35,981 nt of DNA from Tychonema sp. LEGE 07203 (lineage in GTDB: Bacteria; Cyanobacteriota; Cyanobacteriia; Cyanobacteriales; Microcoleaceae). The translations under genes and the position numbers were made by a program. The notes below the pieces were generated by a model. The model saw only the letters and a list, made by a program, of their open reading frames with translations. It was not told the origin of the DNA and ran no database searches. The stretch's first letter is position 1. Each line of letters begins with the position of its first letter. Location of the stretch: positions 1 to 35,981 of the forward strand of contig NZ_JADEXD010000054.1 in NCBI RefSeq assembly GCF_015207285.1. The letters are read 5' to 3'. This document shows, one piece after another, positions 10,802-22,512 of the stretch.

Positions 10802-11659
10802 TTAAAGCCGTCGGCGCGTGTCTAAAATTTGTTGTTGCAATTCCTCGAAAGCGGGGATTTGTGAGCGATCGTCTTTCTCAAATATCGCCCTCATTTGCTC
10901 CATCAGCTCGATCGCCAGCGGTACGCCAAGCTGCAATTGTTCCAAGACATCTCGCTGAGCAAAAACAGCTTCTGGTGTTCCTTCTAGAATCAGTTTTCCG
11001 CGATCCATCACAAACACCCAATCAGCCCAGCGGTAGATAAAATCGAGGTCGTGACTTGCTAAAAGGATAGTGGTTCCGGCTGCATGAATTTGTTGCAGCA
11101 AACCGATGAGTTGGTTAGTGTGACGCGGATCGAGATAAGCCGTAGGTTCATCTAACAGCAGCAGTTTCGGTTTGAGTACCATGATATCGGCGATGGAAAC
11201 GCGCTTTTTTTGTCCTAAGCTGAGATTGTGAATTGGTTCGCGGGCGAGTTCGTTTAGATCGAATTGGTCGATCGCCTCTTGCACCATTCTCGCAATATCC
11301 GGTTCTGAAAAACCCAAATTGTACAATCCGTAGGAGATATCTTCTTCTACCGTGGAAGCTACTAATTGGTGTTCGGGATTTTGAAAGACGAGTCCGATTT
11401 GTTGGCGCAGTTGCGTGAGAGATTTGCGATCGTAGCGAAAGGGTTCACCTTCCCAGCGAATGATTCCCTGTTGCGGTTGGTACAAACCATTTGCTAGCAG
11501 GAAAAATGTGGTTTTGCCGCAGCCGTTTTGACCGATCAGCCCGCAGCGCTTCCCGGCGGGGACTTTGAGGCTTAAGTCCTGAATTGCTACTCGCGAACCG
11601 CAGGGATAGGAGTAGAAAGTGCGATCGAATTCGAGAATTGGGAGTGAGGAATTAGTCAT
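10802..11659 (-). CDS. cbiO: Cobalt ECF transporter ATPase CbiO
   Basis: A 285-residue ABC ATPase. Walker A GLIGQNGCGKTT, Q-loop LVFQNPEHQLVAST (the NPEHQL form typical of energy-coupling-factor ATPases), signature LSLGQKKRVSIA, Walker B LLLLDEPTAYLD and switch His in LLASHDLDF are all present. It should power cobalt (or nickel) uptake with CbiM, CbiN and CbiQ, encoded on the same strand about 9 kb upstream (20465-22356); no other ATPase for them is in the window. The leader just before its ATG consists of AATAACC repeats with no good ribosome binding site. The nearest upstream same-strand gene is the methyltransferase at 11957. Confidence 0.85.
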   Translation of the reverse strand: MTNSSLPILEFDRTFYSYPCGSRVAIQDLSLKVPAGKRCGLIGQNGCGKTTFFLLANGLYQPQQGIIRWEGEPFRYDRKSLTQLRQQIGLVFQNPEHQLVASTVEEDISYGLYNLGFSEPDIARMVQEAIDQFDLNELAREPIHNLSLGQKKRVSIADIMVLKPKLLLLDEPTAYLDPRHTNQLIGLLQQIHAAGTTILLASHDLDFIYRWADWVFVMDRGKLILEGTPEAVFAQRDVLEQLQLGVPLAIELMEQMRAIFEKDDRSQIPAFEELQQQILDTRRRL

Positions 11660-11956
11660 TAGTTATTGGTTATTGGTTATTGGTTATTGGTTATTTGTGA
11701 TTGGTTATTTGTGATTGGTTATTTGTTATTTGTTATAATAGCAATCCTCACATCATTTGTATAATTTATTGTAGGGACAATCCCCCGCTCGGTTTCCCCG
11801 ATCGAGGGTAGGCATTCTTGACACTACCTACAAATTTTTGTGAATCATTTAGGATTGCTATAGTCATCAGTCATCAGTCATCAGTCATTAGTTATTGCTT
11901 GCCACTAACAAATAACAAATAACCAATAACAAATAACCAATAACAACTGTCAACTG
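11660..11956. repeat. Heptamer arrays flanking a small inverted-repeat element
   Basis: The gap between cbiO and the methyltransferase gene is nearly all repeats. GGTTATT-type heptamers lie at 11660-11735, AGTCATC heptamers at about 11866-11889, AACAAATAACC words at about 11905-11945, and CAACTGT heptamers at about 11944-11978, the last running into the methyltransferase stop codon. The element at 11738-11861 sits in the middle. Confidence 0.75.
11738..11861. mobile_element. MITE-like element with ATAGCAATCCT terminal inverted repeats (complete copy)
   Basis: Ends are ATAGCAATCCT (11738-11748) and AGGATTGCTAT (11851-11861), a perfect 11-bp terminal inverted repeat enclosing 102 bp without an ORF. 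The interior (GATCGAGGGTAGGCATTCTT, CACTACCTACAAATTTTTGTGAATC) is repeated in reverse orientation at 16837-16928. That makes it a non-autonomous mobile-type repeat. No transposase is visible in the window. Confidence 0.6.
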
Positions 11957-12817
11957 TCAACTGTCAACTGTCAACTGCCAAAGTTGAATTTCATAACATA
12001 GATGCCGCTCAAATAGTTGACTCGCTTCCAATCCTTCAACTACCAATTTTTTAAACCAGCGGCGAAATATCCAGCGCAGGAATTTGTGGACGGGGGGAAC
12101 TGCGATCGCAATCAAATCCGCAACATAGATCATTGTGTTGAGTCCATACCTGCGAAAACTATCGACATACAAATCAATAGTCGGTAAAATATGAGTAGAA
12201 ATATCCTCAGTTTTTACTAACGTGAACCCAGCTTGCAATAAGGCAGTATTAAGTTCTTTGACAACATGACAGTTAGAAAACATTCCCTCTGTATAATTAG
12301 GATTAGAGCGCATCATATCCGCTAGCAGCAGATAGCCTCCAGGATTGAGTACAGCCGCCGCACCTTTGGCTATATCGACAGCAGACATATACTGGCTGCT
12401 TTCGCTCAAGAGAACCAAATCGTAGGAATGGGTAGCTTGAAAATCTTCAAATTTGGTGCAGTGAAAAATTGCCCTATCGCCCGTACACTTGAGAAAGCGC
12501 TGTTGTTGGAAGGGATCTGGTGCGAGCCCTTCGACGGCAAAAGCGCGATCGAGCAAATAAGCCGCATTTCCGCCAATCCCGCACCCAACATCCAGAATGC
12601 TATGAGTACCTTTGGGGATAAAATCCAAAAGTTTATCTGTGTAAGCTTGCTGAGCAAAACGCAGCCGCCCGATAGTGAGATCCTCAGCCGGCACAGGTAG
12701 AGATTTCCAATAACCGTAATGAAGATACGGCGAATCCGTCAACCCCAAATAGTAATTCAGCGCCGCATTTTGGTAGCGAGTAACTTTAGAAATAGAGATT
12801 GATTTTTGCTTCGACAT
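11957..12817 (-). CDS. Class I SAM-dependent methyltransferase, substrate unknown
   Basis: A 286-residue protein with a Rossmann methyltransferase core: motif I ILDVGCGIGGNAAYLL (residues 74-89), DLVLLSESSQYM (about 133-144) and LNPGGYLLLADMMR (about 157-170). Upstream of motif I is NYYLGLTDSPYLHYGYW, a segment typical of small-molecule methyltransferases of the sterol/tocopherol/sarcosine group. A hydrophobic stretch near 228-240 could contact a membrane or a lipid-like substrate. The last codons (LTVDS, stop) are read from the CAACTGT heptamer array. A cobalamin-riboswitch-like leader lies about 180 nt upstream, so a role linked to B12 or cobalt status is possible; substrate unknown. Confidence 0.8.
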   Translation of the reverse strand: MSKQKSISISKVTRYQNAALNYYLGLTDSPYLHYGYWKSLPVPAEDLTIGRLRFAQQAYTDKLLDFIPKGTHSILDVGCGIGGNAAYLLDRAFAVEGLAPDPFQQQRFLKCTGDRAIFHCTKFEDFQATHSYDLVLLSESSQYMSAVDIAKGAAAVLNPGGYLLLADMMRSNPNYTEGMFSNCHVVKELNTALLQAGFTLVKTEDISTHILPTIDLYVDSFRRYGLNTMIYVADLIAIAVPPVHKFLRWIFRRWFKKLVVEGLEASQLFERHLCYEIQLWQLTVDS

Positions 12818-12951
12818 TGAGAAAGTTAGATTAATTTAAGGATTTCCGGGAGGGTTAAAATTCTTCCCAGCCATTGCATACCTGTTCATAACACTGAAAT
12901 GCGAAAAAAGCAAATTTTTGCAACAAATTGACATCAAAATCTCAAAATTCC

Positions 12952-12981
12952 ATCAGCGTTTATCAGTGTTTATCTGCTGAT
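12952..12981. repeat. ATCAGC...GCTGAT hairpin next to the riboswitch-like leader
   Basis: Short arms ATCAGC (12952-12957) and GCTGAT (12976-12981) enclose GTTTATCAGTGTTTATCT. Words of this kind are, as I recall, a common dispersed repeat in bacterial genomes. The sequence abuts the T-run at the 3' edge of the leader. Confidence 0.4.
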
Positions 12982-12997
12982 ATCTGCGGTCAAAAAA

Positions 12998-21265: not shown

Positions 21266-21273
21266 TCCGACAG

Positions 21274-21594
21274 CTATTCATCATCAGATTTTTGTCGCTG
21301 CGATCGCCCCTTGTACAGCCCGATCGCGTAGCCAATTACGCCAGCCCCCAATGCAGCTTGAGTTGCAAACAGCAAACTTTCAATTTCGCCGCTAGCAGGT
21401 TCAAAGAAGTGATTGAACCAAGGTTCATAGCCCGGTTGAATTTCGGTAATTGCTTGTTGGGCTTCCCCATCAGCACCGCCGTATTCACCCCGAACAAATA
21501 CTAGGGGAATAACAGCAAGAGCAACCACAGCACCAACCAAAATCCAATTTTCTCGCGCAGTAGATTGGTGATTTCTTGTATTTTTTTGACTCAT
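21274..21594 (-). CDS. cbiN: Cobalt transport protein CbiN
   Basis: A 106-residue protein with two TM segments (NWILVGAVVALAVIPLVFV, LLFATQAALGAGVIGYAIGL) joined by the typical extracytoplasmic loop GGADGEAQQAITEIQPGYEPWF. In cobalt ECF transporters CbiN is needed with CbiM for metal loading. It lies three bases after the cbiM stop. Confidence 0.9.
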   Translation of the reverse strand: MSQKNTRNHQSTARENWILVGAVVALAVIPLVFVRGEYGGADGEAQQAITEIQPGYEPWFNHFFEPASGEIESLLFATQAALGAGVIGYAIGLYKGRSQRQKSDDE

Positions 21595-21597
21595 GAC

Positions 21598-22356
21598 TTA
21601 AGACTCCTGTCTCAATAACTTCAAAGTTTCCAACTCCGGCTTCCCGTAGGAATGCAGCCAATTCCAAACCAATAAAGTCAGCAATCCCTCACTAATAGCC
21701 AGAGGAACTTGAGTAATTGCAAAGATGCTAGCAAACTTGATAAACGAAGCTACAAAACCGCCGCTTGCTGCAGGGAAAGCTAACGCTAATTGAATCGAAG
21801 TCACCACATAAGTCAGCAAATCCGCCACAGCCGCCGCACAAAAAATTGCCGCCCGCTGCTTGCCAGTTCGCATCAGCAAATGATAGATAAAATATGCAGC
21901 AAACGGCCCGACAATCGCCATCGAAAACATATTTGCTCCCAGGGTTGTCAAGCCGCCGTGGGCCAACAAAATTGATTGAAAAAGCAGCACCAAAGCACCG
22001 AGTACCGCCATCACCGAAGGGCCGAACAAAATCGCACCCAAACCAGTACCCGTCGGGTGAGAACAACTCCCCGTTACCGAAGGAATTTTCAAAGCAGAAA
22101 GCACAAAAGTAAACGCGCCCGCCAAAGCTAACAACAGTTTAAGTTCCGGATGTTCTTTAGTAATGCGGGCGATCGATCGCAACCCAAAAACAAAAAAAGG
22201 CAGCGCCACCATCCACCAAAACGCCGCCCACTGCACCGGTAAAAAACCTTCCGAAATGTGCATAGCTGCGGCGGGCGTTGCCGAACCGAGGACAATATAA
22301 CAACTCAAGCCAGCCATCAATCCCAGGCTGACTAATTTCCGATTTCTGGCCTTCAT
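21598..22356 (-). CDS. cbiM: Cobalt-binding S component CbiM
   Basis: I start at the ATG at 22356 ([16 protein letters not shown], 252 residues) because GAGG lies just upstream. A longer in-frame ATG at 22404 falls inside the riboswitch. A cleavable signal peptide ends in SATPAAA before MHISEGFLP. Cutting there would expose Met-His at the new N-terminus, which the family uses (amine plus His2) to bind metal, together with His about residue 100 of the precursor (SCSHPTGTG). About six TM segments follow. Co versus Ni cannot be told from the protein alone; the B12 riboswitch upstream strongly favours cobalt. Confidence 0.92.
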
Positions 22357-22389
22357 TCTGTACCTCGCAGATGAGACAATGCAAACAAA

Positions 22390-22512
22390 CACATCGGCGG
22401 GCATCCTGACTCAGAAAGCGACATGGCTTTCATTACAGTTGCGGGACAGCGCCGGACTTGCACCGAACTTTCCCCGTTTCCTCTAATGGCTGCTCCCCAT
22501 TAGAACCGAATG
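22390..22512 (-). promoter_or_regulatory. Cobalamin riboswitch controlling cbiMNQ
   Basis: On the minus strand the leader contains GGGGAAAGTTCGGTGCAAGT, CCGGCGCTGTCCCGCAACTG and GAGTCAGGATGCCCGCCGAT, which are the classical adenosylcobalamin aptamer core and B12 box. Outer P1-type pairing is possible between CATTCGG near 22506-22512 and CCGATGTG near 22390-22397. It ends about 34 nt before the cbiM ATG and close to its ribosome binding site, so translational control is likely. Confidence 0.93.

Follow-up and report, generated by a model that had tools for sequence, protein, structure and literature searches.

A split CbiMNQO cobalt transporter in Tychonema sp. LEGE 07203 with one intact cobalamin riboswitch and a second, probably relict one

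Cobalt transporters of the energy-coupling factor (ECF) class CbiMNQO, together with their B12 riboswitches, have been described in cyanobacteria (PMC4284471), and metE and a desaturase gene are also reported to be B12-riboswitch targets (PMC2211319). The excerpts of PMC2667541 and PMC3766115 contain no discussion of split cyanobacterial systems. Here a split CbiMNQO system is described from the cyanobacterium Tychonema sp. LEGE 07203 (the source strain), in a stretch of 35,981 nucleotides (the window; contig C321, NZ_JADEXD010000054.1) from a draft assembly of 6.6 Mb in 351 contigs, 99.8% complete. The genes cbiM, cbiN and cbiQ (22356-20465) and the ATPase gene cbiO (11659-10802) both lie on the minus strand with 9 kb between them. 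Each half has a leader related to cobalamin riboswitches, RS1 directly before cbiM and RS2 before a methyltransferase gene that precedes cbiO. In the open-licence literature, taken without supplements, no published account of this split arrangement was found, nor any paper pairing "cobalamin riboswitch" with "Microcoleus". The split is real and RS1 is a working-looking riboswitch; it is likely that RS2 is a relic produced by deletion after a gene cassette had been inserted into the operon.

The Split Transporter and Its Two Leaders

Subunits were called at curated NCBIfam cut-offs, which all four exceed, and RS1 at the Rfam model RF00174 (positions are those of the window):

21598..22356, minus strand: cbiM, S component (TIGR00123, 298.4 against a cut-off of 184.15)
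21274..21594, minus strand: cbiN (TIGR01165, 107.1 against 104.85, a small margin)
20465..21265, minus strand: cbiQ, T component (TIGR02454, 150.1 against 111.8)
10802..11659, minus strand: cbiO, ATPase, the sole copy found in the genome (TIGR01166, 216.1 bits against 211.8, a narrow pass)
22379..22525, minus strand: RS1, intact cobalamin riboswitch aptamer heading cbiMNQ (RF00174, 61.8 bits, E 4.1e-13)
22354..22378, minus strand: RS1 expression platform, with the CATCTGCGAGGTA motif (22373-22361) and a Shine-Dalgarno-like GAGG just 5' of the cbiM start

A preliminary description of this DNA had reported the two separated halves and a canonical cobalamin riboswitch at the head of cbiMNQ, and the family models bear out both. 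The proteins belong to CbiMNQO; the genes do not form a contiguous operon here, a feature that the protein family does not require. The substrate is probably cobalt, not nickel, to judge from CbiN and the cobalamin riboswitch. A second cbiO, which that description had said would tell against a split, was sought throughout the 6.6-Mb draft genome and none was found; another copy was rejected because the runner-up among 70 ABC matches is only 36% identical. The cbiM start at 22356, also given there, is preferable to that of the longest open reading frame at 22404, which was dropped: when the query began at 22404, 10 of 26 genus orthologues showed an in-frame stop, and one of those ten (genome G011; genomes and loci carry our labels G and L), re-searched from 22356, showed none.

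RS1 passes the RF00174 gathering threshold of 31.5 bits, covers the full model (1-189), and stands at the start of cbiM in all 26 genus cbiM genes. The CATCTGCGAGGTA motif or a near variant is also found 3' of the other cobalamin riboswitches compared with RS1. Riboswitches of the cobalamin class are known to mask a start codon in a hairpin held by a loop-loop contact, and from its layout RS1 probably exerts translational control in this manner. Many cyanobacteria make pseudocobalamin as their cobamide.

The second leader was the less certain part of the preliminary description, which had read 13121-12998 as riboswitch-like and proposed that B12 tunes both halves of the transporter in parallel. 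Its riboswitch ancestry is upheld by alignment and synteny; its standing as a working riboswitch is not, as it gives no RF00174 match and the 3' half and platform are missing. The region from this leader to cbiO comprises the following:

13120..13133, minus strand: conserved promoter-like block AATAGTGnTAnTAT, kept (none of 12 invariant positions changed)
13000..13109, minus strand: RS2 relic, 5' aptamer half only (aligned to 21 intact copies; no RF00174 match)
12945..13014, minus strand: interspersed repeat at the deletion joint (several copies in its own and other genus genomes, among the matches listed)
12855..12938, minus strand: C-terminal relic of sp146 with a stop at its end (59% identity to sp146 residues 114-140, E 3e-6)
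11957..12817, minus strand: S-adenosylmethionine-dependent methyltransferase of the cassette (PF13489/PF08241)
11660..11956, minus strand: repeat-filled 297-bp gap before cbiO with a strong hairpin (-90.8 kcal/mol, z -7.9)

The gene sp146, named for its 146 codons, lies 3' of RS2 in relatives and ends about 20 nt before the methyltransferase gene; its relic in the window lies 41 nt 5' of that gene. Both leaders were searched with RF00174, as the preliminary description had suggested, with success only at RS1: a search of 901 bases against Rfam gave no match to the model at 13121-12998 at E<=10, so RS2 does not reach the gathering threshold, and a 143-base slice ending inside the leader, with truncated matches allowed, gave no RF00174 match and only AdoCbl-II (RF01689, 11.4 bits, E 7.4). 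Other Rfam matches at the leader (plant microRNA models, a Rickettsia small RNA and the snoRNA sR32) fall far under their thresholds and were discarded as chance. Motif searches of the window gave a single occurrence each, at RS1 and cbiM and not at RS2, of the aptamer 3' motif GAGTCAGGATGCCCGCCGAT (3 mismatches allowed), the platform motif CATCTGCGAGGTA (2 allowed) and the 3' core half GAGTCAGGA..CCGCC.

By its alignment and its synteny with intact copies in relatives, which make the homology real, the RS2 leader is a true riboswitch homologue, now a relic. The window tracks the intact copies from AATAGTGnTAnTAT through ACTGTAA and into P5, departs just 5' of GAGTCAGGATGCCCGCCGAT, and then runs through the interspersed repeat into the end codons of sp146 with a premature stop; the deletion has taken away the RS2 3' half together with its expression platform, as well as most of sp146. 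At 70 positions of the 5' half that are invariant among the 21 intact copies, the window is changed at 13 and locus L046, from a separate genome, at 11, against 0-1 differences when each intact copy is compared with the other 20. When the alignment is lengthened and the missing part is scored as well, 26 of 102 positions differ in the window; the corresponding leave-one-out control gives 0-2 differences in 20 of the 21 intact copies, with 12 of 114 in L047, which carries an insertion. The relic RNA folds no better than its shuffles (z 0.40). Because RS2 is without its aptamer 3' half and platform and is changed at 13 of 70 invariant positions, parallel tuning of both halves is unlikely in the source genome. 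L046 has the same deletion joint as the window; an assembly error is therefore rejected, and the two very likely share a genuine deletion. The nearest relative by both cbiO and leader is Tychonema sp. LEGE 06208 (G026).

The AATAGTGnTAnTAT block is a putative promoter; it was not listed in a generic promoter scan, and the promoter and terminator scan (10700-13350) yielded counts no higher than shuffles and hence was not used. With this block intact and the sensor gone, B12-independent transcription of the methyltransferase gene would be expected. That such transcription reaches cbiO is uncertain, since the gap consists of repeats with a very stable hairpin and read-through from the RS2 leader is not assured. 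The gap (163 repeat matches in its own genome, self included) resembles a miniature inverted-repeat element, parts of which recur at many genome sites. A search of solved structures with the methyltransferase returned only distant small-molecule methyltransferases (best E 6e-8). Pfam gave no match to sp146 at E<=10; PF26649 and PF26619 are listed for a few sp146 relatives in a protein search.

The remaining genes of the region are listed below; those between cbiQ and cbiO agree, by open reading frames and family models, with the preliminary description, the mnt genes being on the plus strand:

18075..20198, minus strand: SPFH/Band 7 protein, between cbiQ and cbiO (PF01145)
16945..17673, minus strand: 242-aa protein, between cbiQ and cbiO (neither Pfam nor NCBIfam gives a match at E<=0.001)
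16195..16773, minus strand: Uma2 family protein, between cbiQ and cbiO (PF05685)
13314..16068, plus strand (opposite): intervening mntC-mntA-mntB-like metal ABC transporter (PF01297 for the binding protein; open reading frames)
9272..10696, plus strand: larC, convergent to cbiO (TIGR00299, PF01969)

The names mntA and mntB are those of the preliminary description, family-model support covering the binding protein (PF01297) only. The larC gene, which serves in making the nickel-pincer cofactor, adjoins cbiO in convergent orientation in the window and at a number of genus loci. Extra C-terminal cbiO fragments lie 3' of cbiO at L059 4947-5075, L097 10564-10692 and L055 12831-12932 and are possible duplication remnants.

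Distribution of the Split and of the Second Riboswitch

The survey covered 61 genomes of the family, 29 of them in the genus. Within the genus cbiM was found in 26 genomes, cbiO in 26 and both in 25, and the two are split in all 25, a comparison of gene order that the preliminary description had proposed. In the family outside the genus all eight genomes with both genes have them contiguous, within 2.1 kb, and the other 24 have neither gene at the thresholds used. Ten of the 25 split genomes have both genes on one contig, 3.9-140 kb apart as measured from cbiM to cbiO; these counts treat Prado104, where the two are closest, as split because RS2, sp146 and the methyltransferase gene sit between its cbiQ and cbiO. 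At the thresholds applied, cbiM and cbiO are both missing from two genus genomes, G022 and G052 (99% and 96% complete), which keep the methyltransferase gene.

Under strict filters RS2 reaches the Rfam cut-off at the methyltransferase site in at least 20 of the 29 genus genomes, and no match at the cut-off was found at the site in the other nine; seven loci scanned separately (L046, L048-L050, L064, L065 and L106) have no RS2 there. Intact copies upstream of this methyltransferase gene mostly lie about 640-820 nt away, measured from ACTGTAA, with 282 nt at L047. An intact RS2 is present, for example, in Microcoleus vaginatus HSN003 and at L060 9235-9379. The methyltransferase gene itself is kept in all 29 genomes. 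RS2 and a complete sp146 are both present in 19 genomes and both absent in nine, with RS2 lacking a complete sp146 in one (G030); the second switch thus tracks sp146 rather than cbiO. All nine genomes without RS2 keep a same-strand piece of sp146 22-130 nt before the methyltransferase gene, C-terminal in eight and covering residues 62-111 in G033. Because these pieces remain at the site, ancestral absence of RS2 in the nine was rejected and the changes are read as losses and not as a late gain. A methyltransferase tree whose 30 rows were labelled for RS2 (intact in 21, lost in 9, with UBA9251 from outside the 29 among them) requires five or more changes of that label. Other decay of RS2 is seen at L050 1977-2279 (G047) and L065 9753-9975 (G040), with a truncated switch within or directly 5' of a partial sp146 match.

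Sixteen genomes have cbiO shortly after an intact RS2 (15 judged by measured gaps, G046 by gene coordinates); 15 of them also have RS1-cbiM, and the exception, G038, has no cbiM. The layout with two switches envisaged in the preliminary description, which is unlikely in the source genome, is therefore predicted in 15 of the 25 genus genomes that hold both halves, one intact switch lying before cbiM and another before the methyltransferase gene and cbiO. In G050 and G055 RS2 is likewise intact and cbiO lies at another place. G022 and G057 also keep RS2 intact, and no cbiO was found in either; G057 is 84% complete and has its methyltransferase gene near a contig end.

Beyond the family, a class sample of 194 genomes included 47 with both cbiM and cbiO, within 2.3 kb of each other in 39. 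The genes lie apart in eight, two of this genus together with G109, G122, G180, G211, G229 and G236, so splitting recurs; the split in G211 may be a contig break. Seven loci where cbiO (in G229 with cbiQ) lies away from both cbiM and the cassette were scanned, three outside the genus and four within, and none carries a cobalamin riboswitch.

Origin of the Cassette and Competing Explanations

Prado104 (G049; L067/L179) has the order RS1-cbiM-cbiN-cbiQ-RS2-sp146-methyltransferase-cbiO in about 4.8 kb, which looks as if a cassette had been placed between cbiQ and cbiO. Similar gene pairs occur elsewhere. An sp146 homologue lies beside the methyltransferase gene at six Pseudanabaena-type loci; the three scanned (L092, L093 and L107) all have a cobalamin riboswitch directly before the pair, and no cbiO match. 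A Calothrix plasmid locus (L085) has the order riboswitch-metE-sp146 homologue-methyltransferase, and in Nostocales a riboswitch is found 1.5-4.3 kb 5' of an sp146 homologue at L074, L077 and L080; many further methyltransferase loci have no sp146 match nearby. Elsewhere in the source genome riboswitches precede metE and two sp146-like genes (L183), a desaturase-like gene and another methyltransferase gene (L185), and cobW (L184); at L186 a weak match that stays under the cut-off extends over the start of a cobG frame. The sp146-like genes that follow metE, and the desaturase-like gene and second methyltransferase gene behind cobalamin riboswitches (L183 7701-8682, L185 5581-8325 and L172), appear to form a B12-controlled cyanobacterial gene set whose biochemistry is uncharacterised. 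At L172 5645-6007 (G015) a 120-codon metE-like frame, perhaps a metE remnant, lies between a cobalamin riboswitch and sp146-like genes. Since riboswitch-sp146-methyltransferase loci occur without cbiO, or with metE, RS2 most likely belongs to the sp146-methyltransferase pair, and cbiO would be under RS2 by position.

From the gene order, the intact RS1, the truncated RS2, the deletion and the comparative pattern, the following order of events is inferred. The ancestor would have had a riboswitch-cbiMNQO operon, and in the Microcoleus lineage an RS2-sp146-methyltransferase cassette, akin to a riboswitch-metE-sp146-methyltransferase operon, may have come between cbiQ and cbiO. The ATPase gene would thus have been separated and placed 3' of a switch of its own, the gap being widened by later insertions. 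In the source strain and Tychonema sp. LEGE 06208 a deletion would then have taken the RS2 3' half and most of sp146. RS1 most likely still shuts off cbiMNQ in the source strain when B12 is plentiful, hiding the cbiM start, and the methyltransferase gene and cbiO would no longer be under B12 control. We are evenly divided on the wider reading, in which the cassette split the operon across Microcoleus, gave each half a B12 switch and joined the ATPase to a B12-repressed metE-type set, the second switch later decaying repeatedly and the first in none of the genomes surveyed, with the source strain left uncoupled.

Several points weigh against this account. In 15 of the 25 split genomes cbiM and cbiO sit on separate contigs, so that their true distance is not measurable. 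The near-basal position of Prado104 comes from one gene tree, and its compactness may have arisen secondarily. Support for a kinship between RS2 and two riboswitches of G015 is weak (89/78). The relic differs between the window and L046 at 5 of 132 sites and the methyltransferase gene at 54 of 861; as the relic diverges no faster than that gene, a remaining role, for example as promoter, is possible. The regulatory functions given here for RS1 and RS2 are predictions from sequence.

The alternative that survives best, a real though somewhat doubtful possibility, is that cbiO has its own promoter in the gap of 297 bp and that RS2 never had effective control of it in this lineage, the split being ordinary shuffling of the genome without regulatory meaning. 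It fits the methyltransferase-cbiO gaps of 125-1003 bp in the 21 of 29 genomes with one locus spanning both genes, the want of a cobalamin riboswitch at all seven scanned loci where cbiO stands apart from cbiM and cassette, and the separation of cbiO from the cassette in G040, G044, G050 and G055; however, the same-strand methyltransferase-cbiO order is kept in most of the genus, and 12 of those 21 gaps are 125-260 bp. Duplication of RS1, rather than arrival with the sp146-methyltransferase cassette, is an unlikely source of RS2: the CATCTGCGAGGTA platform motif is common to RS1 and RS2, but it or a near variant is also present at the metE, desaturase, cobW and Pseudanabaena switches, and the nine RS2 copies included in a riboswitch tree group with the two G015 switches and not with RS1 (weak support, 89/78). 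On this weak tree the closest source of RS2 could be either the metE or the desaturase operon. Very improbable is a truncated RS2 that still senses B12 as a minimal or rearranged aptamer and tunes the methyltransferase gene and cbiO in parallel with cbiMNQ; its 5' aptamer sequence is recognisable, its promoter-like block intact, its conservation between two strains at least that of nearby DNA and its relatives' copies intact, but the aptamer 3' strand and platform motif are gone, conserved core letters are altered, the fold is no better than shuffles, and a repeat-hairpin gap precedes cbiO.

If the cassette account is true, the genus offers a natural experiment on the question of which ECF transporter subunit needs to be regulated. 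The source strain would represent the uncoupled state, with CbiMNQ under B12 and CbiO free of B12 control, within a genus-wide set in which the same transporter is under one or two switches, the second variously placed. With such a set one could test if regulating only the substrate-capture and scaffold genes suffices, and learn about riboswitch gain with cassettes and loss by deletion; it also flags sp146 and the methyltransferase gene as an uncharacterised B12-controlled pair. Taken alone the source strain is ordinary for a specialist; gain of a switch by cassette and its repeated loss across the genus are moderately interesting.

Comparison with Known Systems

The window resembles the split ECF systems of G109, G122, G180, G229 and G236 in that cbiO, or cbiQ and cbiO, lies apart from cbiM. 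The split-off halves of G122, G229 and G236, the three scanned, differ from it in lacking a cobalamin riboswitch and likewise an sp146 homologue, G229 having only a 30% match to a different methyltransferase. As regards RF00174, RS1 spans the whole model, while RS2 retains only the 5' half by descent, having neither 3' half nor platform, and does not match the model. As in the CbiMNQO ECF cobalt transporter (PMC4284471), all four subunit families are present with a canonical riboswitch before cbiM; unlike the ECF norm, cbiO lies 9 kb off, past unrelated genes. The cassette resembles the B12-riboswitch metE and fatty-acid desaturase operons: cobalamin riboswitches also precede sp146-like and methyltransferase genes in Nostoc, Calothrix, Pseudanabaena and G015, and the source genome itself has metE with two sp146-like genes elsewhere. 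Unlike these operons, the cassette of the window lies within what was formerly an operon for cobalt transport, and its switch is lost.

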